Below, one piece after another: positions 4,952-25,723 of a stretch of 34,758 bases of DNA. Under the pieces are notes generated by a model. The model searched no databases, was not told the origin of the DNA, and saw nothing but the letters and a program-made list of their open reading frames with translations. Source of the DNA: a virus. The DNA is taken from IMG/VR virus record IMGVR_UViG_3300033141_005122, positions 1 to 34,758 of that record; one strand, 5' to 3'. Each line of letters opens with the position of its first letter. Positions within the stretch are counted from its first letter, which is position 1. Made by a program: the position numbers and the translations under genes.

Positions 4952-5621
4952 CCGAAGCCTCCATATAAAATGGTGGATCATCATGGTCTTTAGTTAATGA
5001 CCGTAAAGATATTTTAACATCATTATCTTCTATATATACTTTAGCTTCAACATTAGACCACTTCCTATCCCCCTCTTTTAGTAATCTTTTTGCTAGAGGC
5101 GTAGATATATAACGTTCTATAGCCCTTAATAAAGGACGTGCTCCGTACTCTTCATCTATTCCCTTATCATAAATATATGAGTACACAGATTTATCAAAAA
5201 CAAGGTTAAGTTTTGAATATTTAGTTTTATTGAGTTTAAGGTTATTTCTAAGTTTAATCAACTCTAACTTAATAATTTTAATATAATCTTTTTTAGTTAG
5301 TTTATTAAAATTAATTGTACAAGTAAGCCTATTTAAAAATTCAGGTTTAAAATGTTTCCTAAGTGCTTGGGAAATAGCTGAATCAGCTTTATGTTTTGTT
5401 ACCTCAGTTACATTTCCAAATCCTATTTTCTTTTTGATTGCATTTACTTCCTTAACACCTAAATTAGACGTCATTATAACAATTACATCTCTAAAAGAAA
5501 CAGTTTTAGATTTTCCATCAGTTAATCTACCTTCGTCCATGATTTGTAACATCAATTGATGAACTCTATCACTAGCTTTTTCAACTTCATCAAATAATAC
5601 TATTGAAAATGGCCGCCCTGC
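4944..5621 (-). CDS. Clp AAA+ ATPase, C-terminal part after a frame break
   Basis: Open frame continuing the clp gene. It starts near GRPFSIVLFDEVEKA, which contains Walker B, and runs through EGRLTDG, sensor 1 (MTSNLG), the arginine-finger region PEFLNR and the sensor 2 box YGARPLLRAIERY to the end at 4944. It has no good start codon of its own before a TTG/ATG pair near 5555, which would omit Walker B. Together with 5600-6805 it would make a ClpA/B/C-type unfoldase. The frame is lost between 5612 and 5620. Stop and next start overlap with the cupin gene. Confidence 0.85.
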   Translation of the reverse strand, partial: AGRPFSIVLFDEVEKASDRVHQLMLQIMDEGRLTDGKSKTVSFRDVIVIMTSNLGVKEVNAIKKKIGFGNVTEVTKHKADSAISQALRKHFKPEFLNRLTCTINFNKLTKKDYIKIIKLELIKLRNNLKLNKTKYSKLNLVFDKSVYSYIYDKGIDEEYGARPLLRAIERYISTPLAKRLLKEGDRKWSNVEAKVYIEDNDVKISLRSLTKDHDDPPFYMEASDD

Positions 5622-6805
5622 TCATGGCCAACATAACCAGCTGGACTTCCAATTAGTTTTGCGTATTCATGGTCAGCGGCATACTCGGAACAATCGATTA
5701 CTACTATAGCATTTTTATTATTCAAAAGTTCTTCCGCTAATACTTTGGCAGTATAACTTTTACCAACTCCTGTCTGCCCAGTAAATAAAAAGGCTCCAAT
5801 AGGTTTTTCAGGATCTTTTAATCCAACACTAGCTCTTTGAATAGCGTCAACTAAATCATCGATAGCTTCGCTTTGACCGATTACCTTTTTTTTCATTAAA
5901 GACGGTAATTTTAACATATGATCAGTACTAACATCTCTAAATGTTTTATGCTTTTTGTTTCCATGTAACACCCTGTCTACCAACTCTTCTGGATTAGAAT
6001 ATGCTTCCTCCATACTAGAAAAAGGATCCATTGCTTCGTCATCTGCCGGTGAAAAAGAGTCTTTGTACAGATCATAATCTAAAAAGGGATTAACTTTTTT
6101 ACATAAATCATATAACTCATGAATAATAATGGGGGAAGGCACTCTTTGTGGAAGCCCCAACTTATCTAAAGTTACAAATAAATCTTCAACTTCATGAATA
6201 CAAACAGTAACAATATACTGTTCAAATACATGTCTACTTGTAAAATTTCTATTACCTAAAATAGTAATTTCACTACCAGGGTCAAATTGTTTTATAATAA
6301 TATATTGCCCTAATCTTTTCCAAAATCTCTGTACCTTTATATGCGGTAAATCATAAATATTAATAAGTTTGTTAAGAGCTTCTTTATTATTAGTTTTAGT
6401 ACTCTTCTTGTATACATTACGATCCCAATACTCATTATCTGGTAAAAGTGTACAAGACTCAATATCCATGTCATTTCGAATTTTTACCACGTTGTTTTGG
6501 TTAATAACTAAATTATCGGGATCAAAAACTGGGTTAGTTTTTAATATATGTTTTATTAATTCACTTCGAACTTGAAAAAGTTTTTCAGATGAAACACGTT
6601 TAGTTTTAATAAACTCTAATAAATCACGTATATTCATTATACATGTAGCCACTAAAAAGTCTTCGTATAAACTTTTAGCGATTAAACCCTTCTCCCTAGT
6701 AAAATAGGTAAGTTTATCATTGACTTCATCTTCTGGTATTATAAAAATTTTGATTTCGAAATCTAAAGCCTTTAACTTCTTAGTAACAATTTTATATTTC
6801 TCCAT
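5600..6805 (-). CDS. Clp AAA+ ATPase, N-terminal part, truncated by a frame break
   Basis: 401 residues. Residues 1-280 are a domain I do not recognise. From about 300 a Clp D2-type AAA module begins: GQSEAIDDLVDAIQRA, Walker A GQTGVGKS (343-350), then LIGSPAGYVGHEQGG and a premature TAG. Clp relatives continue from GG with about eight more residues before (R/N)PFS. Here those residues are missing and the frame is off by one, which fits a deletion of about 28 bases (22 to 31 possible). Such phage Clp proteins have a single AAA ring and a private N-domain, suggesting a role in unfolding or remodelling phage complexes. Inactive as written. AGGAG precedes ATG 6805; Rad52-like gene is 15 nt upstream. 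Confidence 0.88.
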   Translation of the reverse strand: MEKYKIVTKKLKALDFEIKIFIIPEDEVNDKLTYFTREKGLIAKSLYEDFLVATCIMNIRDLLEFIKTKRVSSEKLFQVRSELIKHILKTNPVFDPDNLVINQNNVVKIRNDMDIESCTLLPDNEYWDRNVYKKSTKTNNKEALNKLINIYDLPHIKVQRFWKRLGQYIIIKQFDPGSEITILGNRNFTSRHVFEQYIVTVCIHEVEDLFVTLDKLGLPQRVPSPIIIHELYDLCKKVNPFLDYDLYKDSFSPADDEAMDPFSSMEEAYSNPEELVDRVLHGNKKHKTFRDVSTDHMLKLPSLMKKKVIGQSEAIDDLVDAIQRASVGLKDPEKPIGAFLFTGQTGVGKSYTAKVLAEELLNNKNAIVVIDCSEYAADHEYAKLIGSPAGYVGHEQGGHFQ

Positions 6806-16525: not shown

Positions 16526-17269
16526 TCATGCCTCCATTAAAATAACAATTTTTTGTTGTAACACTGCAATCGATCTTTCTACATGTGCTGATATAGACCC
16601 GTCGATTGCTTCTAATGTCCAATCATTAGATTTAAATTTAAATAATGCCCCATTAGAAATAATTATTGGTTCTACAGCTATAACCATTCCAGGACGAAGT
16701 CTCCAATCTACCCCAAGAGTTGGACTATTTGGTATATTAGGATCTTCATGTAATTCAAACCCTACCCCATGTCCACCATAACCAGCCAAAACGTCATACC
16801 CTTCAACGCTAACAGTATTAAAAATAGTTTCAGAGATAGAAGATATACGTATATTTGGCTTTATTAAACTAAGAGCTTTGTTTAGTGCTTTATACGCAAT
16901 ATTTACTATCCTACTTTCACCACCACCAATTACAAACGTTTCTGCATTATCGCTTACAAACCCATCCTTAATAAAACCAACATCAATAGTAAGTATATCG
17001 CCTTCTTTTAAAATATAATCCGATGGAAAACCGTGTATTACTTCAGAATTAACACTTACACAAAGTTGGTGAGGAAACCCATTGTACCCAAAAAATGCTG
17101 ATTTAAGTTTATATTTTTCACAGAATTTTATACATAATTCTTCGAACATATATGTTTGCACACCAGGTTTTATATATTCATTACAAATACCGAAAAACTC
17201 TTTCGATAACTTGTTAACATATACAAGCTTCTTTATCTGAGATGGTAATTTTAATAAAAACATGCTCAT
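16526..17269 (-). CDS. map: Type I methionine aminopeptidase
   Basis: 247 residues. Metal ligands of MetAP-I are all visible in order: Asp in TIDVGF, Asp in FVSDNAETF, His in GYGGHGVGFELHEDP, Glu in AVEPIII and Glu in HVERSIAV; the substrate His is in VIHGFP. It removes initiator Met from new proteins. It follows the PanC-like gene in the same run as the radical-SAM genes, so it may process those products. A weak AAGGA lies 14 nt before ATG 17269. Phage copies are uncommon. Confidence 0.93.
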   Translation of the reverse strand: MSMFLLKLPSQIKKLVYVNKLSKEFFGICNEYIKPGVQTYMFEELCIKFCEKYKLKSAFFGYNGFPHQLCVSVNSEVIHGFPSDYILKEGDILTIDVGFIKDGFVSDNAETFVIGGGESRIVNIAYKALNKALSLIKPNIRISSISETIFNTVSVEGYDVLAGYGGHGVGFELHEDPNIPNSPTLGVDWRLRPGMVIAVEPIIISNGALFKFKSNDWTLEAIDGSISAHVERSIAVLQQKIVILMEA

Positions 17270-17293: not shown

Positions 17294-18205
17294 TTATAAA
17301 TCAATATACTCACAATAAACCAAATAGCTATCGCCACTAAAATTATTATTTACATGTAATGGAATTTCGATAAAAGCTTTATTGTTATCAATCCACACCA
17401 AATCGTAAAACACTTCTACCCTTAAAGCACGGAATTCTCCCGAAGTATCTAAAGCATTGATACTACTTAGCAAATCTTGTTTATATTGTTCTACATCAAT
17501 TTGTATTTGTGATTTACCAGTTTCTATCAAACTTGGTAATTGTTCTGTGAAAGATTTTTGAGGCATTAATATAGAATCAACTATAGATGACATATAAGGA
17601 AATCCAGTAAGTGGATTTATTATAGGTTCAGGAGAAATAAAAACCTGATTCATATAAGTCTCTAGAAAATGTTTCATACCCAATCGCCAACTACCATCTT
17701 TATATGAGCCTACTCTCACATCTATCCTATATAGATCTAGATCTTCACGTATTTTAGTAAATAACATAGCAGCTCTTAAAAGTACTTTTCTATAATCATC
17801 TAAAGCAAAGTAATTATTAGTACTTATTACATTCTCAACATAAGCACGTAGCTCTTCTAAGTTAAAAGACTCAACCCAAGACAGTTCAGTACCTCGTTCA
17901 GGCCACAGTACTAGATCTACATTTTGCTGTTCACACCATTGTAAGCACACTTGCTTTATTTGTTCGCTACTCTTTGATGGATAAATACCATACTCAGGGT
18001 ATACATTTGTAAATATTTCTCCAAGATTCATAAAGCCAACCATTACTTTATCAGCATGTTGTTTAGACTCAGCCACACACTGTTCATGACCCGCATGAAA
18101 ACTATCTAAGCTTTCTTTTCTTTGCATGCCTATATAGGCTATAGTGTTATTATATACAGATTTGCTGTACTTTTTACATTCACTAGTAGTAGTGATAATT
18201 TCCAT
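17294..18205 (-). CDS. PanC-like nucleotidyltransferase (pantothenate synthetase-related)
   Basis: 303 residues. FHAGHEQC is the HIGH-type ATP motif in the position used by pantothenate synthetase, followed by VGFMNLGEIF in place of the usual SIFVNPxQF. NPLTGFPYMSS resembles the later DxxGLAxSSRN segment but lacks its key Arg and Asn, so pantothenate synthesis is doubtful. It may adenylate another carboxylate. No panB, panD or other CoA gene is nearby; instead radical-SAM genes precede it by five bases. AGGAGG lies 12 nt before ATG 18205. Superfamily fairly sure, substrate unknown. Confidence 0.75.
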   Translation of the reverse strand: MEIITTTSECKKYSKSVYNNTIAYIGMQRKESLDSFHAGHEQCVAESKQHADKVMVGFMNLGEIFTNVYPEYGIYPSKSSEQIKQVCLQWCEQQNVDLVLWPERGTELSWVESFNLEELRAYVENVISTNNYFALDDYRKVLLRAAMLFTKIREDLDLYRIDVRVGSYKDGSWRLGMKHFLETYMNQVFISPEPIINPLTGFPYMSSIVDSILMPQKSFTEQLPSLIETGKSQIQIDVEQYKQDLLSSINALDTSGEFRALRVEVFYDLVWIDNNKAFIEIPLHVNNNFSGDSYLVYCEYIDL

Positions 18206-18209
18206 ACTC

Positions 18210-18695
18210 TTAGTTAGCCTCCTGTAAAAGTTTTTGTAACAATTCGCTGTTTAGCTCAAAGGATGGTGGAGTCCAAGAATTTAACTCAGAAAATAGAGAA
18301 AACATAGTTTTAGATTTTTTCAATAGATTCACATGTGAATTATATAAACTTAAAAATTTATTTAACAATAAACACAATTTTGACAATAAAATGTCTTTTT
18401 TATAATTTTCATTCCAATTATACACAATTTCTGAAAATATGCTACAAAAAGCTACCATTTCATAATTTAAATTGGCATTTAAAACTTTATCGACAATAAT
18501 AAAAGTAACGTCTTTAATTTTATTCTCATAATCATCAACTATATCTTCTTCTATAACCATCTTATAAATATGAAAGTTCATTAATCCTATTACAGACTTA
18601 ACACACTTTCTTTCTTCATCATTAAATAAGGACGACACAGATTTAGATAATAAAAGTTTATTCAAATCATCAATATACCTTTCATAATCAGACAT
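18210..18695 (-). CDS. Small helical protein of the radical-SAM operon
   Basis: 161 residues from ATG 18695, chosen because AAAGGAG lies just upstream and the codon overlaps the stop of the radical-SAM gene (ATGTCTGA). Highly helical, rich in Leu, Asn and Lys, no Cys cluster, no RRE-like winged helix that I can see. It pairs in position with the 143-residue helical protein after the other radical-SAM gene: each enzyme is followed by a small helical protein. A chaperone or substrate-binding helper is a reasonable guess. Confidence 0.75.
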   Translation of the reverse strand: MSDYERYIDDLNKLLLSKSVSSLFNDEERKCVKSVIGLMNFHIYKMVIEEDIVDDYENKIKDVTFIIVDKVLNANLNYEMVAFCSIFSEIVYNWNENYKKDILLSKLCLLLNKFLSLYNSHVNLLKKSKTMFSLFSELNSWTPPSFELNSELLQKLLQEAN

Positions 18696-20007
18696 TTCCT
18701 TCTCCTTTAATATATTTCTCATAAATATTGAGAGAATCAGCACACTCCAATGTATAAAAATATTTTAATATCCCTAATTTGTCCAACTCATCTATCAACG
18801 CAAAAACTTTAGCATGTTCTAATAAACAAATTGTAGGAGCTGTAATAAACATTTCACCAGAAAATTCATAATTAGCCCCTAAACATGGTCCACTACATAA
18901 ACCTTGTATGCCACATGATTCACAAAATGGAAATAACTTAAAGTTAAGAGAATATAAAGCAGTGACAAGATCTGGATTTATAGATTCAATACCAGTAATT
19001 TTATTACCATCATTTACAAACCTATACATATTAAATTGATCATAAGCCGTTCTATGGCACGGAGATACAGTTAAATCTCCCAATCTAAGTTGCATAGTAG
19101 ACTGCACTGAACATCCTAACCCCCTACCCATACCAAAGAATGCTGAGAATATATTAAATATTTTTCTTTTATGTATCTCCCATACAATATCTTTATCCTC
19201 TATATTTTCTTTTCTTAATCTATCAATAACCCAATTTACTACAAATCTTATAAAATTATAAAATTCCTTTATCTGTTTAAGATTCCACTCATGATTTCTA
19301 ACTTCCAATAAATAAATAGACTGCCAATTAATATTGTATTTTTCAAACATCTCTTGAAACCATAGAAAGTTATCTTTCCATAGTTCAATACCTTTACTAT
19401 ATATCATGGGATGGAAAGCATACCCCCATTTTGATTGTAAAGAAAATATTTTATCATAGAAATCTTCGGTTCTTTTCTTTCTGAAAAACGGCCTATTAAC
19501 TTCATCAAGATACTTTCCGTCAACGGATGCACTTAGGATAAGATTAATGTCATGGTATTTAGCTCTATTTATTAATTTATCTATCCTAGAAATCTTTTCA
19601 TCACTAAGAACAAAACTAAAATTAGTAGGTACAACGATATTATTATCTATAGAATGTTGTATCTGCCAATCTAATACTTTTTCTATAACTAAAAATCCTA
19701 TCTCTGTAGAAAAAGGCTCGCCAGAGAAAATTTCTATCATAGGAAAATATTTATTATTAGATAACCAATTTAATAATATTTCTAAATTATTTAATATACT
19801 ATCTTTCTTACTGATAGATGGTGGGTTCAAAAAATTACCATATTTATTATAATAACAATATGAACATCTCTGATCACAAACAGCTGTTATTTCTAATTCC
19901 AAAGATGAAAAATTGCTATATTTATCATCTACTAAAAATCTACGGTCTCTCCAAGATTCAAAAAATGTTCTACTAAGAATATGTAAAACTATATCATCCT
20001 GTATCAT
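18688..20007 (-). CDS. Radical SAM/SPASM enzyme A
   Basis: 439 residues. The radical-SAM cluster motif is CDQRCSYCYY near residue 43; FSGEPFS matches the GGEP motif. A SPASM-type C-terminal domain has CESCGIQGLCSGPCLG plus further Cys (CHR, TICLL), enough for auxiliary iron-sulfur clusters. Such proteins modify ribosomal peptides or enzyme residues. It lies 50 bases after two tetrapeptide-repeat proteins that are natural substrate candidates, and a second radical-SAM gene lies on their other side. GGGGA precedes ATG 20007. Confidence 0.92.
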   Translation of the reverse strand: MIQDDIVLHILSRTFFESWRDRRFLVDDKYSNFSSLELEITAVCDQRCSYCYYNKYGNFLNPPSISKKDSILNNLEILLNWLSNNKYFPMIEIFSGEPFSTEIGFLVIEKVLDWQIQHSIDNNIVVPTNFSFVLSDEKISRIDKLINRAKYHDINLILSASVDGKYLDEVNRPFFRKKRTEDFYDKIFSLQSKWGYAFHPMIYSKGIELWKDNFLWFQEMFEKYNINWQSIYLLEVRNHEWNLKQIKEFYNFIRFVVNWVIDRLRKENIEDKDIVWEIHKRKIFNIFSAFFGMGRGLGCSVQSTMQLRLGDLTVSPCHRTAYDQFNMYRFVNDGNKITGIESINPDLVTALYSLNFKLFPFCESCGIQGLCSGPCLGANYEFSGEMFITAPTICLLEHAKVFALIDELDKLGILKYFYTLECADSLNIYEKYIKGEGNV

Positions 20008-20056
20008 ATCATATCCCCAACTTACCTACTATTAAAATATATTTGATCTAGTAAGT

Positions 20057-20413
20057 TTACTTGTAGGCAAAATAATCAGTATTACAAACTGAACTATCAT
20101 ATGATGAATTTACTGAACTATTATGACTACTACAATATCCTGAATAATCACTGCCATCTACTCCACTATCATAAGATCCGTTATAAGAAGAATCAGCCGT
20201 AGTATTCACAGTGGAGTCAACAGATGATAAATCACCAGAATTATATGAACCATAATAACTAGCGTCGTGTCCACTACATACAGAAGCATCATGACTAGCA
20301 TCAACCAAATTATCATCTAGCCAATCTACATTATTTCTAAGTTCTTGTAGCTCTACACCCACATCCCAATCTATCTTTTCATCTTCATTTAATGTAGACC
20401 ATGAAAAACCCAT
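20057..20413 (-). CDS. Tetrapeptide-repeat protein 1, putative radical-SAM substrate
   Basis: 118 residues. Residues 1-36 form a short module with FSWS and KIDWDVGVELQELRNNVDWL, like helical neck segments of phage fibres. From V37 to T112 come 19 tetrads in perfect register: position 1 mostly V/Y/H/D, position 2 D/N/C/Y/L, position 3 S/A/G/T, position 4 S/G/T. Examples are HDAS, VCSG, YNSG, HNSS, VNSS, YDSS. All three Cys (46, 94, 110) fall at position 2. It ends DYFAYK. Strong GGAGG before ATG 20413. With the neighbouring gene it is the likely substrate of two radical-SAM enzymes. Confidence 0.85.
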   Translation of the reverse strand: MGFSWSTLNEDEKIDWDVGVELQELRNNVDWLDDNLVDASHDASVCSGHDASYYGSYNSGDLSSVDSTVNTTADSSYNGSYDSGVDGSDYSGYCSSHNSSVNSSYDSSVCNTDYFAYK

Positions 20414-20431
20414 TTATATACCTCCATTTGT

Positions 20432-20875
20432 TTATGCGCTATAAAATTTTGCACTATTTAAACCAGTATCTTGAGATGATAAAACACTAGTATAATGAGA
20501 TCCACATACAGAGCTATTATCACCGCTGTCCACAGTAGCATTCTGTCCTGAGTCAACTGTCGTATTCTGAGTTCCATTAAATCCTGAATTATTAGTAGAA
20601 AGATCGCCAGATAAATCAGAACTGTCTACAGAGGTATGGTTTGTTGAATTGTCAGAATTACAACTATTATTATCATAAACATAATCAGCAGCATCTCTCA
20701 ACTCTTGTATATCTTGATCATCTATTTTATCGCCAGAACTTTTAGGGAATTTGGTCCATGAATAAGCTGTCAACCCTAATCTACTTATTAAGTTATCTAT
20801 ATTATTTTTAACTTCATTATGATGATCTTCCTGAATAGAATCACCAGGTACAATAGATGTCCATGAAAAACTCAT
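20432..20875 (-). CDS. Tetrapeptide-repeat protein 2, putative radical-SAM substrate
   Basis: 147 residues from ATG 20875; the ATG six bases earlier overlaps GGAGG and is too close to it. Two copies of the N-terminal module are present, FSWTSIVPGDSIQEDHHNEV and YSWTKFPKSSGDKIDDQDIQ, each followed by a short helix. From residue 71 there are 18 tetrads in one register, such as VDSS, DLSG, FNGT, QNTT, VDSG, QNAT, then KFYSA. Both Cys (72 and 124) occupy tetrad position 2. Composition is Asn/Asp/Ser/Thr/Gly-rich. Related to the protein at 20057 in both halves. Probably modified after translation, possibly virion-associated. Confidence 0.85.
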   Translation of the reverse strand: MSFSWTSIVPGDSIQEDHHNEVKNNIDNLISRLGLTAYSWTKFPKSSGDKIDDQDIQELRDAADYVYDNNSCNSDNSTNHTSVDSSDLSGDLSTNNSGFNGTQNTTVDSGQNATVDSGDNSSVCGSHYTSVLSSQDTGLNSAKFYSA

Positions 20876-20890
20876 GCTCATCCTCCTATT

Positions 20891-21322
20891 TTAACTATGT
20901 AGTATATTATAATAATGCCTACTCATATCAATTCCAACTGGTCTAGTTTTATTCATAAAATTATCTATTTTAGATACTAATATAGAAGAAATTCTTACTA
21001 AATTATCTACCGATAAACAATCACATGTAAGTTCATTTATAAGTTTAGCTTTTTTCATAACATCCGAGAATTTTTCATCGCCAAATATATTAACCCATTT
21101 AATAATAGACACACTAGAATTATAACAAAAATTTAATACTTCTTTAGATTCCACATTCCTTTCTACTAAACATCCTAATAAAATATCAATAAACCAATTT
21201 ATATCATCAACATTTATTTGCTTTGCTATATTACCACTAAGCTGTTCATTTATCATATTATAAATATCTCTTATTTTATTATATCTAGCACCGAACATAA
21301 AATATAATTCTCTGTCATTCAT
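20891..21322 (-). CDS. Small helical protein following radical-SAM enzyme B
   Basis: 143 residues, helical, four Cys scattered without metal-site spacing (GCLVE, FCYN, TCDCL). The start overlaps the radical-SAM stop as TAATG and follows GGAGGG, so the two are translationally coupled. Its place mirrors that of the helper after enzyme A. Not recognised; may deliver substrate. Confidence 0.75.
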   Translation of the reverse strand: MNDRELYFMFGARYNKIRDIYNMINEQLSGNIAKQINVDDINWFIDILLGCLVERNVESKEVLNFCYNSSVSIIKWVNIFGDEKFSDVMKKAKLINELTCDCLSVDNLVRISSILVSKIDNFMNKTRPVGIDMSRHYYNILHS

Positions 21323-22638
21323 TATATGTAACCCTCCTTAATAAGCCTACTTGTACAGAGTTCACCATAGCCATTTCCTAATAAAATAAATAAACTAGAA
21401 TCGGGTATAAACATACTACCAGACTTTACCAGTGATTCCAAATAACATTTTATTAACATACAATAAAAATTCAACATTTTTGTCATATCAAAGTCTTTAT
21501 AAATACTATTTATTACACCACACTCAGCTAAAGTATAACAAGAAGAGTATGCGGAATTTTCCAATAATCTACCAAAATCATTATAAACTCTGGATCTAAT
21601 CAAAAACTTTAATATATCAATTTCAGAGGACTCTTTATTGATAACACCAAGTTTACCAAGACTACTTTCATCTAAATTAGATTCTTTCAAATATAATTCA
21701 TCATCACTATAGAAACATCTATGGCAATATTGTAAAGAGTAAGGTTTTTCTCCTAGAGCAAAACATGAATCACCAGCAGAACATAGAAACATTTTATGTT
21801 TACTATAAAACTCTCTCTTTGAAACTAATTTATCTGCAGCTCTTCTATAAATATAAGACTCAGGAGGATTAATAAATCTATACTTATAATTTTCTTTAAG
21901 TATTATTTGATTCTTATATAACTTGTAAAAATTAATACCATCTTCTTTATTATAATTACAGTCACTAGAAATTACTACTGTTGGATCTACAATATTAGTG
22001 ATACGTATATTCTTAAATTCTGATAGTTTAGAAAATAAATCCTCAAAGAAATCATAGTAATATTTCAAATTATCAAAACTAGACAAATATTGTATATCTT
22101 CCCTCGCTGCAGTAGGTTTAATATGAGCAGATATAAATCTATTACTATCATTTAAGTGTTTAAACACATATAAAACATTTTCTATTATCTTATCTGTAGA
22201 TCCTAATTTTCTATTCTTATCAGTAATCTCTGGAGGACCATCAATAGATATCTGTATATCTAAATTCAATTTTCTAGGAAGAGATTTAGCAAAATCAATT
22301 ATATTATCAGGATTAGTCATAAAGTTAGAAGAAAAACTAACTGTTTTGAGTTTAGGAAATTCTTCTACAGCTTTCTGATAAAAATCCTTAAATAAGCTAA
22401 TAGTCAAAGTAGGTTCAGTGCCCCAATGACCAATACTCTCTAACTCATCGCCAAAATAATATTTAAGCTCTTCTAAATATTTTCCTGATTTAATTTTATC
22501 TATAATTGTTTTATGAATATCTTTTATTCTATCTACTTTAGAAATATAACAGTATTGACAGTCTAAATTGCACCACCCAGCTGAAAATAATTCACTAGCT
22601 ACAGCTACAGGTGTAGAGAAAAACTTATTTATAGACAT
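21322..22638 (-). CDS. Radical SAM enzyme B with SPASM-like Cys-rich C-terminus
   Basis: 438 residues. CNLDCQYCYI gives the iron-sulfur/SAM site near residue 23; GHWGTEPTL replaces the GGEP motif, and QISIDGPPE matches a conserved strand of SPASM maturases. Later Cys (FLCSAGDSC, YCHRCF, SSCYTLAEC) could hold auxiliary clusters. It is separate in sequence from enzyme A. The tail-fibre gene ends 20 bases upstream, so both are probably on the same transcript. AGGAG precedes ATG 22638. Confidence 0.92.
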   Translation of the reverse strand: MSINKFFSTPVAVASELFSAGWCNLDCQYCYISKVDRIKDIHKTIIDKIKSGKYLEELKYYFGDELESIGHWGTEPTLTISLFKDFYQKAVEEFPKLKTVSFSSNFMTNPDNIIDFAKSLPRKLNLDIQISIDGPPEITDKNRKLGSTDKIIENVLYVFKHLNDSNRFISAHIKPTAAREDIQYLSSFDNLKYYYDFFEDLFSKLSEFKNIRITNIVDPTVVISSDCNYNKEDGINFYKLYKNQIILKENYKYRFINPPESYIYRRAADKLVSKREFYSKHKMFLCSAGDSCFALGEKPYSLQYCHRCFYSDDELYLKESNLDESSLGKLGVINKESSEIDILKFLIRSRVYNDFGRLLENSAYSSCYTLAECGVINSIYKDFDMTKMLNFYCMLIKCYLESLVKSGSMFIPDSSLFILLGNGYGELCTSRLIKEGYI

Positions 22639-22658: not shown

Positions 22659-25034
22659 TTATCTAACCTTTATCCAGTGCCGTCCATTTACTTTAATTTC
22701 GTTATTAGGCCCCCAAAATTCTCTAGGTTCTGGTCTATCATAAATAGCAACTAACCTCTCAGGATAACTTCTCTTATCTTCTAATGTCATTTCAATAAGA
22801 TCTCCATTTTCATCATTAGTAAGAGGAGTACCAGGTTCATATTCTTTATCAACATATGCTAAAACCCATCCAGCTACAGCAAATGGTGCTTTATTATCTC
22901 CTCCAACTCCAGCAGCGATACCGTAAGTATCAGAACATACTCCTATAACTCCCAATTGACACCTCTCAGTACAAATCTTTGCACCAGATTTAGTAAGTCT
23001 ATAAACTTTACCATACACCACTTCATCATCAACCGGTTGAAAATCAGCTATATCGTTATAAACAGCATTATAAACCTTAGTAGCATAGAAATATCCATCA
23101 TAATTTAAACGTGTACTATTGGTGGGATCAGTAGTACCAGCATAAAAATACCCATCTGTTTTAGTTGTACCACTTATTTTAAGGGTACCAGTCATCTCAT
23201 CTCCAGTTACATTAACATATCTGGAATCATGAGTATGACCATTGATAGAGAAATATGATGAGTCATGCCCATCTAATAAATCAGCATCGAGACCAGATCC
23301 GCTACCATCTACATTCTTAATTTTTGCTAATACATCAGCATCTTCATAGTCAGTTAATAATACAAATCTAGCATCAGCTTCAGTTTCAGTAAAATACCTG
23401 TCATCATGAGTATGAAGAGTAGTATCGCCACTGCCAGTTAATCCATTATATTCACTTGCAGTTAAATGTTTGTAATCTCCATCATTTAATCCTGAAGTAT
23501 TATTATGTGAAATAGTAGAACCAAATACAACCCAAGCTGAACCGTTGTATGTATAAAGTTTATTCTCATCTTCCACCCAAACAGCAAGGCCTTCCGATTT
23601 AGCAGTAAATTCCCACGAACTACCATTCCACTCGGTTATTTCACCATCATGCCCAGACCAAGCACCTGTTGCACTATTAGCAATTAAGTACCTGTCTCCT
23701 GTAGAAGGAGATCCTGGAGGACTACTCAAATCTTTATCAATCACTGAATCTTGCCAATCTAGTCCTTGGACAACAGAGTCTACATAACTTTTTGTAGCTA
23801 AATGATCAGCCGATGTGGGGGTTATACCACCAACTACCCCCGTAAACGATCTTGTACCATCTACTCTAATATATTGCGTATGATCGTCATCTGATAATCC
23901 TGATAAATCACTGTGATCTAAATCTCCATTAGCCAAATCAACAGTTCCATTTAATTTAATGGTCTGACCAGTTCCACCTATATTAATATCCCCACCACTA
24001 GAATTATTGGAAATAGTGATATCATGATTTGAATAGGTGCTAGGAACTACTATTTGAACTCCACCTTCACCAGAAAAATAAAGATCACCCGAATCACCTG
24101 TCGAAGCAACTTTCAATCTTTGGCCTGAATCTGTAGAAATTGTAATAACATCACTTACATCTTCAATGACTTTTTTATTGTTAACATAAATAGATCCTGC
24201 ATCAGCCATCAAATCATGACAATATATAGTATTAAATTTTGCTGTAGCAGAACCAATATCACGTGTTGAAACCGACCCACTAGCTCCAGTCATTTCAGGT
24301 AGTAAATCGCCAGATAATTGTAGACTATTTGCATTAAACCTAGCTATTTCTGACGCATCAGCTTCAATAATAATATAGCCAGTTCCAGTATCAACAACTT
24401 CAACTTTAGAATTTCCTTCTGTTATTGAATCTTGGCTTAGTCCAGCAACACTGTCATCTACATACTTTTTATCCACTAAATTAGTATCTGCAGTAAAAGA
24501 TTTGTTAGAATTATAACTAATAACATTAGTAAATGCACGGCTTCCGTCTACTAATATATATTGTAAATGATCATCGTCACCTAACCCATTTAAATTACCG
24601 TGATCAGTATAATAACCCCCGCCTAATCCCGCTGAGGTTAAATAACTACATAGAATAATATCACCTACTTCAGGCGCAGCAGTAAAAGTTATCTGCGTAC
24701 CACTTACAGTATAATCATTGCCTGTTCCAGGTTGCTGCAAAATACCATTTAAATAAACCTCTAATGAATTAGCTTCTGGCGCCGCTGATAAAGTAAAGTT
24801 TGTGTTTGATCCATTAATAGACCCAGTAGGTGATTCATTAGCAGTCAAAGTTCCTACTTTTTCCCATTCAAAGGCAGAATTGCTAGCATTATATGTTAAT
24901 ACATCTCCATCATCAGGTGAATTCACAATATCTAATTTAATAGGGGTAATCTCAGCATTTTTAATGTGTGCTCCAGAAATAGTAGCATCAATTATTTGAT
25001 CTCCTCGAATCGCTGTGTTAAGCTTAGTTACCAT
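22659..25034 (-). CDS. Long tail fibre protein
   Basis: 791 residues, mostly fibre-type repeats: GDDDHLQYILVDGSRAF and SDDDHTQYIRVDGTRSF are paired repeats; HTHDDRYFTETEADARF and LDADLLDGHDSSYFS are motifs common in phage tail fibres. The N-terminus (MVTKLNTAIRGDQIIDATI) is also typical. The C-terminal 130 residues (YNDIADFQPVDDEVVYG to NGRHWIKVR) form a compact domain like those that end fibres of Gram-positive phages, possibly self-processing. It would bind the host surface. GGTGATGG precedes ATG 25034. The repeat-protein tetrads downstream echo its GHDSSYF motif. Confidence 0.92.
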   Translation of the reverse strand: MVTKLNTAIRGDQIIDATISGAHIKNAEITPIKLDIVNSPDDGDVLTYNASNSAFEWEKVGTLTANESPTGSINGSNTNFTLSAAPEANSLEVYLNGILQQPGTGNDYTVSGTQITFTAAPEVGDIILCSYLTSAGLGGGYYTDHGNLNGLGDDDHLQYILVDGSRAFTNVISYNSNKSFTADTNLVDKKYVDDSVAGLSQDSITEGNSKVEVVDTGTGYIIIEADASEIARFNANSLQLSGDLLPEMTGASGSVSTRDIGSATAKFNTIYCHDLMADAGSIYVNNKKVIEDVSDVITISTDSGQRLKVASTGDSGDLYFSGEGGVQIVVPSTYSNHDITISNNSSGGDINIGGTGQTIKLNGTVDLANGDLDHSDLSGLSDDDHTQYIRVDGTRSFTGVVGGITPTSADHLATKSYVDSVVQGLDWQDSVIDKDLSSPPGSPSTGDRYLIANSATGAWSGHDGEITEWNGSSWEFTAKSEGLAVWVEDENKLYTYNGSAWVVFGSTISHNNTSGLNDGDYKHLTASEYNGLTGSGDTTLHTHDDRYFTETEADARFVLLTDYEDADVLAKIKNVDGSGSGLDADLLDGHDSSYFSINGHTHDSRYVNVTGDEMTGTLKISGTTKTDGYFYAGTTDPTNSTRLNYDGYFYATKVYNAVYNDIADFQPVDDEVVYGKVYRLTKSGAKICTERCQLGVIGVCSDTYGIAAGVGGDNKAPFAVAGWVLAYVDKEYEPGTPLTNDENGDLIEMTLEDKRSYPERLVAIYDRPEPREFWGPNNEIKVNGRHWIKVR

Positions 25035-25123: not shown

Positions 25124-25723
25124 TTAGTTTATGTTTTCTTTTTTTGAATAAAACCCCATATCAAAAGTCCATTCATATTTTTTATTTACTTTATTTAGTA
25201 AATCATTTGTATAGTAATCCATAAATGGAGCGTGACTAGTTTTATGGATATGAGGAAAATCTAACTGTAAATTTAACCCTAATTCATTATTCAATATTTT
25301 ATTTGTATCTTTTTCTAAATACTCTAACCTAATTATTCGTAAATTTGGAGGTATTTCTTCATTTATTAATATAAAATCACTATACGAATTATAATTCTCA
25401 AAATGCCAATCAACAAATTCAGGAAAATTTACCCCTTTTAACTCTGCGATGTGTGGATACTTTGAATTGCTTTTAATTTGTTGTACCCAAGCCCAGTGTG
25501 AAACCAAATTAGCGTAAGGATTTCTTATTAAAGTTATTATAATAAGTTTATTAAACAATTCATCACCAAGTATTTCTTTCTTAACTAGCAAAGGCTCATG
25601 ATGAGTAAATTTTTTAATGTGTCTACTTTCGCCTAACTTTTTTCTAAGAAATGTAGTAAATGAAGTCCCTCCAGTTTTAGGTATATGAAAAAACGCTAAC
25701 CATTGTTTTTCAAAGTATCGCAT
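25124..25723 (-). CDS. Sulfotransferase family protein
   Basis: 199 residues. FHIPKTGGTSF is the 5'-phosphosulfate loop of PAPS-dependent sulfotransferases and RNPYANLVSHW the 3'-phosphate site; HKTSHAPFMDYY and the closing YEWTFDMGFY fit the family's C-terminal pattern. It would move sulfate from PAPS to a hydroxyl on sugar or Tyr. It stands just upstream of the tail fibre and the Tyr-rich repeat proteins, so these or host surface sugars are possible acceptors. GGAGG is 13 nt before ATG 25723, rather far. Confidence 0.85.
   Translation of the reverse strand: MRYFEKQWLAFFHIPKTGGTSFTTFLRKKLGESRHIKKFTHHEPLLVKKEILGDELFNKLIIITLIRNPYANLVSHWAWVQQIKSNSKYPHIAELKGVNFPEFVDWHFENYNSYSDFILINEEIPPNLRIIRLEYLEKDTNKILNNELGLNLQLDFPHIHKTSHAPFMDYYTNDLLNKVNKKYEWTFDMGFYSKKENIN

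Follow-up and report, generated by a model that had tools for sequence, protein, structure and literature searches.

A conserved phage cassette of paired radical-SAM enzymes and tetrad-repeat proteins with a probable role in tail maturation

Described peptide-modifying systems and the phage locus

PapB and other ranthipeptide, SCIFF, and QhpD maturases form thioethers that connect a cysteine to an acidic residue. The His-Xaa-Ser (Hxs) system (HxsA-HxsB-HxsC-HxsD) comprises a pair of radical-SAM enzymes together with a small protein and a substrate built of short repeats. In the TvgA/TvgB system of Halomonas, TVGG repeats are converted to cyclopropylglycine (PMC9062424).

The locus described here lies on a virus contig of 34,758 nucleotides (IMG/VR record IMGVR_UViG_3300033141_005122), which is referred to here as the window. 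The initial annotation had proposed that two radical-SAM genes, each followed by a gene for a small helical protein, enclose two repeat proteins directly behind a tail fiber. All six genes were recovered in that arrangement, and the fiber was identified by its DUF2793 and PHROG matches. The order on the minus strand is tail fiber, rSAM-A, helA, tetrad-repeat protein 1, tetrad-repeat protein 2, rSAM-B, and helB (Table 1). For helB, an ATG start at 18695 is likelier than a GTG start at 18743. The gene that follows has only weak nucleotidyltransferase-like profile matches, and similar genes were located by eye at L001:7829-8746 and L058:3005-3916.

Table 1. Genes of the cassette and its neighbors in the window.
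Feature	Coordinates	Strand	Evidence
Tail fiber, 791 aa	22659..25034	-	DUF2793 E 7.5e-21; several PHROG tail-fiber matches; immediately upstream of cassette
Radical-SAM enzyme A (rSAM-A), 438 aa	21322..22638	-	Pfam Radical_SAM 31.0 bits; 15-homolog alignment
Small helical protein A (helA), 143 aa	20891..21322	-	Matched by helB-protein profile, E 1.3e-6
Tetrad-repeat protein 1, 149 aa	20432..20881	-	Period-4 z 9.4; homolog alignment
Tetrad-repeat protein 2, 118 aa	20057..20413	-	Period-4 z 13.4; homolog alignment
Radical-SAM/SPASM enzyme B (rSAM-B), 439 aa	18688..20007	-	PapB profile 8e-15, SPASM profile 4.6e-4; 16-homolog alignment
Small helical protein B (helB), ~161 aa	about 18210..18695	-	AlphaFold2 pLDDT 92.2, all helix
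Conserved neighbor, 303 aa, possible accessory gene	17294..18205	-	Similar gene beside cassette in L001, L058

The suggested analogy to Hxs stands as a resemblance in how the system may work, with paired radical-SAM enzymes, a small protein, and a substrate of short repeats on both sides, and fails as a family assignment. Against the HxsB profile (TIGR03978, cut-off 370 bits), rSAM-B scored 26.8 and rSAM-A 32.3 bits, and the phage repeats have a period of four rather than the period of three seen in Hxs substrates. Unlike Hxs, the phage cassette has an all-helical small protein, two putative substrates, and a tail setting. The closest curated profiles for both enzymes are those of PapB and other ranthipeptide, SCIFF, and QhpD maturases. 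Membership in PapB itself (NF047865, cut-off 340 bits) was likewise rejected, given scores of 54.9 bits for rSAM-B and 52.7 bits for rSAM-A and the lack of the Cys-X3-Asp substrate motif in the phage tetrads, which hold few cysteines. TvgA/TvgB offers a possible parallel in that one radical-SAM enzyme modifies many tetrapeptide copies along a single substrate; however, its tetrad sequence is unrelated, it relies on a single enzyme, it includes exporter genes, and it is bacterial.

Enzymes, helical partners, and repeat proteins

The CxxxCxxC motif is invariant in the alignments of both enzymes (15 homologs of rSAM-A and 16 of rSAM-B). rSAM-A scored above the Pfam Radical_SAM cut-off of 29.5 bits and rSAM-B, at 19.6 bits, below it. 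Seven SPASM-type cysteines are invariant among the rSAM-B homologs (C299, C317, C362, C365, C371, C375, and C394) and include the Cx2Cx5Cx3C motif. rSAM-A lacks that part of SPASM, and its SPASM set is only partial since C286, C305, and C398 alone are conserved beyond CxxxCxxC. By these sequence features, both enzymes are assigned to the radical-SAM/SPASM superfamily.

rSAM-B also matched the NCBIfam SPASM profile and many peptide-maturase profiles, and all 16 members of its alignment matched PapB, QhpD-type, and SCIFF peptide maturases. Neither enzyme reached the cut-off of any curated family, PapB being the closest. A sequence search of the PDB returned general radical-SAM relatives only (5wgg, anaerobic sulfatase-maturating enzyme, and ChlB). 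When the window enzymes were compared with cultured phages by tblastn, no match was found; a more central rSAM-B homolog (L010) returned only distant radical-SAM matches from Campylobacter and Salmonella phages. Two human fecal ‘phage’ records among these matches (L082 and L084), in which SCIFF-type maturases adjoin SecD/SecF-like genes, were dropped as pieces of bacterial chromosomes. The interrupted rSAM-A and rSAM-B genes of three contigs (L041, L077, and L078) were considered as decayed copies, a reading that was rejected because their frames stay open when TGA is read as tryptophan or TAG as glutamine.

The two small proteins appear to be related to one another, as helA was recovered by a profile built from helB proteins without helA. 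Identification of the helical protein as an RRE (PqqD-like, winged-helix) was rejected, since the helB model is helical throughout and a Foldseek search of the PDB returned nothing at E ≤ 0.001.

The repeat proteins had been described as consisting of perfect four-residue repeats. The register is indeed unbroken, but the sequence is degenerate, with the consensus [YVH]-[DN]-[STAG]-[TGS]. None of 300 shuffles reached the period-4 z score of either protein, and the next best of the 69 open reading frames in the window had a z of 3.6. Periods of 3, 5, 7, and 9 gave no signal in either protein (period-3 z of -1.2 and 0.4), and a super-period beyond the tetrad itself was detected at lags of 8 (z 8.5) and 16 (z 9.5). 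No tandem array was found in the DNA of the repeat genes, and the four-residue register is therefore maintained at the protein level. Ahead of the tetrads, repeat protein 1 carries two SWT...ELRxxxD-type modules and DNNxC, and repeat protein 2 carries a single SW...ELRNNVD module. Asp or Asn dominates the second tetrad position (Cys, 4%). The tetrads are too degenerate for the putatively modified residue to be read from sequence. AlphaFold2 gave no confident fold for repeat protein 2 (pLDDT 48).

Recurrence of the cassette and its link to phage tails

Among 38 distinct contigs that encode rSAM-B, 37 also encode rSAM-A, and the locus of the sole exception (L060) is truncated where its contig stops. 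The two enzyme genes overlap or abut in most of these contigs, and a helical protein directly follows rSAM-B in 32 of the 38. By an automatic test, at least one period-4 protein is present in 30 of the 38 contigs and at least two in 23; several contigs that failed the test (L042, L052, and parts of L062) show clear tetrads by eye. One contig (L072) encodes both enzymes and the helical protein, with no repeat protein found within the examined stretch, and two gut relatives (L054 and L075) carry other repeat types with periods of 5 and 3. Pairwise distances of rSAM-A and rSAM-B are positively correlated (r 0.85; 0 of 5000 permutations), showing that the enzymes co-diverge.

A scan that started from the repeat proteins rather than the enzymes relied on a set of seven N-termini, as an alignment of 14 proved too diverse for scanning. 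It returned 10 contigs, of which seven were known cassettes. In the other three, a divergent radical-SAM pair lies alongside the repeats (L093), an apparent radical-SAM/SPASM C-terminus sits at the contig edge (L092), or the contig ends right after the repeats (L091). None of the 10 contigs thus presents a repeat protein that is clearly without a radical-SAM gene, and the predicted co-occurrence of enzymes and repeat proteins was borne out across some 38 contigs. Collectively, these observations demonstrate that rSAM-A, the helical protein, the repeat proteins, and rSAM-B form a genuine conserved cassette. Matches in archaeal and Omnitrophota genomes were single contigs of metagenome-assembled genomes, two of them identical to IMG/VR virus contigs, and we therefore do not claim archaeal hosts.

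Tail-fiber genes adjoin the cassette in the window and in other loci, and its place within the tail module is maintained across loci. Domains typical of fibers also occur within or after the repeat proteins: a LamG lectin domain lies inside repeat protein 1 of two contigs (L011, 3e-16; L008, 8e-15), and in a third (L001) a repeat protein ends with SDIRLKKDI and is followed by a split piece of Peptidase_S74 (1.1e-7). The fiber neighbors, the LamG insertions, and the S74 chaperone sequence favor the virion over secretion as the predicted destination of the repeat proteins.

Proposed function, alternatives, and implications

We consider it likely that the locus is a tail-module maturation cassette whose enzymes modify the tetrads to yield a stiff tail appendage. 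The recurrence of the set in dozens of diverse phages makes it probable that the phages carrying it harden or cross-link a portion of their tail structure. Both repeat proteins would be components of the appendage, and genomic context suggests that they are present in the virion. Their N-terminal ‘SWT...ELRxNID’ modules may anchor the protein, dock the enzymes, or both, and the C-terminal [YVH]-[DN]-[STAG]-[TGS] array would receive the modification. In a presumably anaerobic host setting, rSAM-A and rSAM-B, together with the small all-helical partner, would act repeatedly along the register-locked tetrads. The likeliest chemistry would be radical attack at the position-2 Asp/Asn or neighboring residues, giving ring-forming cross-links (or epimerized residues) at a spacing of four or eight residues. 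The modification may yield a rigid rod or solenoid that resists proteases and either supports the receptor-binding tip or extends it.

Membership of the enzymes in the class of RiPP maturases, N-terminal modules that could serve as a leader, and the action of TvgA/TvgB on TVGG tetrads (PMC9062424) would also be consistent with repeat precursors that, once modified and cleaved, leave the cell as an antimicrobial, signaling, or superinfection-blocking peptide. Such a secreted product is improbable, however, given that no peptidase or exporter gene for leader removal or export lies beside the cassette in the loci examined, that the putative substrates reach several hundred residues, and that the LamG and S74 sequences are features of virion fibers in a conserved tail-module position. 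It also appears unlikely that the repeats are ordinary low-complexity fiber segments and that the enzymes, neighbors by chance, act elsewhere on tRNA, nucleotides, or a host protein. Unrelated genes do often gather in phage tail modules, and GYSG-type repeats occur in adjoining fibers. Nevertheless, co-occurrence extends over dozens of highly diverged contigs despite rearranged gene order, the repeat-first scan produced no clear counter-example, the enzymes match mainly peptide maturases, and different, Cys-based repeats likewise adjoin radical-SAM genes (see below).

The tetrads consist mainly of residues with NNY codons, and repeat sequence differs greatly between phages that retain the N-terminal modules, as might be expected if the repeats were the diversification target of a hypervariable adhesin (e.g., of a diversity-generating retroelement), with a composition shaped by mutation and no chemical change. 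We regard this as very improbable: a PHROG and Pfam comparison of window proteins revealed no reverse transcriptase, the strict register and the 8/16 super-period point to structure, and two dedicated radical-SAM genes would be left unexplained.

Distant radical-SAM relatives adjoin Cys-repeat proteins, among others in the cultured Campylobacter phage CP220 and in Salmonella jumbo phages (Seoulvirus). In SPN3US-type Salmonella phages, CSxx reading frames lie upstream of the radical-SAM pair, and in CP220 the candidate proteins are gp140 and its neighbors. As in the cassette, radical-SAM genes there lie near tail genes with repeat proteins (CDCNYCT or CSxx) close by, although the enzymes are only distantly related and the putative substrate is Cys-rich. 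The text of the CP220 report that we consulted describes both a 21-bp repeat and radical-SAM genes without linking them, and terms the 11–12 radical-SAM genes of CP220/CPt10 ‘highly unusual’ (PMC2853527); a marine T4-like genome encodes 12 (PMC5332604). We tentatively raise the possibility, for which the chances are somewhat short of even, of a widespread and unrecognized class of tail appendages in which low-complexity repeats are cross-linked by phage radical-SAM pairs to harden virion parts. The repeats of that proposed class would be xDS[GST] tetrads here and CSxx or CDCNYCT Cys repeats in the distant phages.

Our literature search identified no paper that connects peptide modification by radical-SAM enzymes with a virion protein of a phage, or phage radical-SAM enzymes with tails or RiPPs. 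If the preferred reading of tail maturation is true, tail assembly would gain a new step, the enzymatic cross-linking of fiber repeats, with a chemistry that viruses are not known to use, and the cassette would supply new enzymes for modifying long repeat proteins at regular intervals. The possible wider class of cross-linked appendages would also answer an old puzzle, namely why Campylobacter phages and certain T4-like phages of marine origin have up to a dozen radical-SAM genes. The idea can already be tested in those cultured phages whose repeats are Cys-based.

Gene order and conservation of the cassette

The window is a 34.8-kb virus contig (IMG/VR) in which almost every large ORF lies on the minus strand. 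Its nucleotide genes of phage type encode ribonucleotide reductase, thymidylate synthase, dUTPase, and dCMP deaminase. Downstream of a tail fibre gene, the order is rSAM-A (a radical-SAM enzyme; A), helA (a small helical protein), repeats 1 and 2 (proteins of four-residue units, or tetrads), rSAM-B (a radical-SAM/SPASM enzyme; B), helB (a second small helical protein), and a gene with weak PanC-like similarity. A phage-encoded type I methionine aminopeptidase (16526-17269; 231 bits against a cut-off of 171) follows just downstream of the cassette, and a sulfotransferase-like gene (25124-25723) lies just upstream of the tail fibre.

Genes adjoining the window cassette, and proteins adjoining other radical-SAM genes in other contigs (L handles)
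Feature	Position	Strand	Remark
Tail fibre	22659-25034	-	Upstream neighbour of cassette
Gene with weak nucleotidyltransferase (PanC-like) similarity	17294-18205	-	Look-alikes adjoin cassette in L001 and L058
Cys-rich repeat or S74-type protein	L022:9109-9795		S74-type C-terminus by eye
Cys-rich repeat or S74-type protein	L014:9248-10150		S74-type C-terminus by eye
Cys-rich repeat or S74-type protein	L031:6422-6844		
Cys-rich repeat or S74-type protein	L019:7200-7811		
Cys-rich repeat or S74-type protein	L021:5028-6938		

The window's A and B were each aligned with their first relatives, and further searches and removal of duplicates then gave 38 distinct contigs with B. A lies beside B, or with no more than a small ORF or the genes for helical and repeat proteins in between, in 37 of these, the remaining contig being truncated by its end; a helical protein directly follows B in 32/38. 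Most often, repeats 1 and 2 come first, followed by A, B, and the helical protein. In the window clade (the window, L001, L056, and L058), the repeats are placed between A with a helical protein of its own, on the upstream side, and B with its helical protein; L006 and L039 carry the repeats downstream. Thus, order varies but content is constant, as expected for parts that work together. Distances among A and among B homologs are correlated (r = 0.85; Mantel 0/5000). The initial annotation had likened the layout of these genes to a peptide-modification operon, a reading that would be contradicted if relatives of the repeat proteins were consistently encoded away from radical-SAM genes; searching from the repeat side (10 contigs, one of them cut off and uninformative) revealed no clear counter-example.

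With the standard genetic code, in-frame stops interrupt A and B in L041, L077, and L078. They are intact with TGA read as W in L041 and with TAG read as Q in L077 and L078; from these reading frames, the cassette seems to be present in phages of three genetic codes. Divergent A/B relatives occur near other repeat types, namely S-N/H-S triads (L075:5558-6562) and an Asn-rich protein (L054:9946-10695).

Repeat proteins and their probable connection to the tail

Nearly all repeat proteins carry an N-terminal module resembling FSWTxxxxxGxxIxxxxxxELRxNIDxI (two copies in repeat 1, one in repeat 2), and most of these modules have a Cys behind them (DDxNYC, DNxAC). Tetrads, up to ~80 or more, then extend to the C-terminus; in the window, the arrays in register are NHTS VDSS DLSG DLST NNSG FNGT QNTT VDSG QNAT VDSG in repeat 1 and VCSG HDAS YYGS YNSG DLSS VDST VNTT ADSS YNGS YDSG in repeat 2. 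The period of four is far beyond chance and, among 69 window ORFs tested, is confined to these two. Pooled tetrads favor Y/V/D/H/E at position 1, D/N/Y at position 2, S/T/A/G at position 3, and T/G/S at position 4; the scoring scheme that set the register favors these residues and somewhat inflates position percentages, whereas the period test is independent of it.

A super-period is also evident at 8 (z 8.5) and 16 residues (z 9.5) when compared with shuffles that preserve the phase. The arrays of two phages contain plain repeats of 16 residues (KDTT VDSD QHTG YYTD in L056; VDAS QDDT ADAT KNVT in L058). Pentapeptide-repeat proteins form a 4 x 5 coil, and by analogy one natural reading is that the tetrad array would coil with 8 or 16 residues per turn. 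AlphaFold2 gave no confident fold for the bare repeat chain.

Upstream neighbors in other loci include Peptidase_G2-type proteins, LamG proteins, and tape-measure genes, and a LamG lectin domain lies within repeat protein 1 of L011 and L008. The fibre chaperone Peptidase_S74 is split in L001 (L001:5140-5993). Its beginning, SDIRLKKDI, forms the end of repeat protein 1, and coding for this first segment follows both repeat genes (in repeat 2, it comes behind a stop codon). The remainder is encoded after repeat 2 by a small gene of its own that has a separate start, possibly a chaperone acting in trans. GYSG-repeat fibre-like proteins are also encoded close to the cassette (L006:5726-6511, L071:2-2200).

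Enzymes and helical partner

The best profile match of both A and B is PapB, far under its cut-off, and all 16 of 16 B homologs also match QhpD-type, nif11-type, and SCIFF maturases. The SPASM cysteine set is complete in B and reduced in A. On sequence grounds, A and B are predicted peptide-modifying-type radical-SAM enzymes outside every curated family. The helical partner yielded a confident all-helical model with no match in the PDB, which rules it out as a standard RiPP recognition element.

Cys-repeat proteins in other phages and a putative tail modification

Weaker matches of the same searches revealed other radical-SAM genes adjoining Cys-repeat proteins in tail modules of five contigs (L022, L014, L031, L021, and L019). 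In the cultured Salmonella phage SPFM2 (LR535921.1), three small unannotated CSxx-repeat ORFs (~5100-6130), with Cys about every fourth residue, are flanked on one side by long tail-type genes and on the other by two adjacent radical-SAM genes, annotated moaA/albA. Gp140 of Campylobacter phage CP220 (L097:3182-4786; 534 residues) carries CDCNYCT-type Cys repeats and is encoded close to tail genes; a few genes away lies a homolog (E = 1e-42) of the L022 radical-SAM gene. The accessible parts of the CP220 publication report a 21-bp repeat in CPT_0180 and an unusual number of radical-SAM genes, the two not being connected there (PMC2853527). This 21-bp repeat encodes the CDCNYCT-type repeats of gp140, and we infer that the Cys repeats and radical-SAM genes belong together.

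The tetrad proteins are likely the substrates of A and B, and the modified product likely belongs to the virion tail; that both hold is reasonably probable. The modification may, tentatively, be a cross-link or epimerisation centered on tetrad position 2. Radical-SAM action on short repeats has been predicted for the Hxs system. An enzyme of this kind is already known in TvgB, which acts on TVGG (PMC9062424). The open literature yielded no paper on a radical-SAM virion-maturation step, most subscription journals being outside that search; as such a step, radical-SAM modification of repeats would be new.
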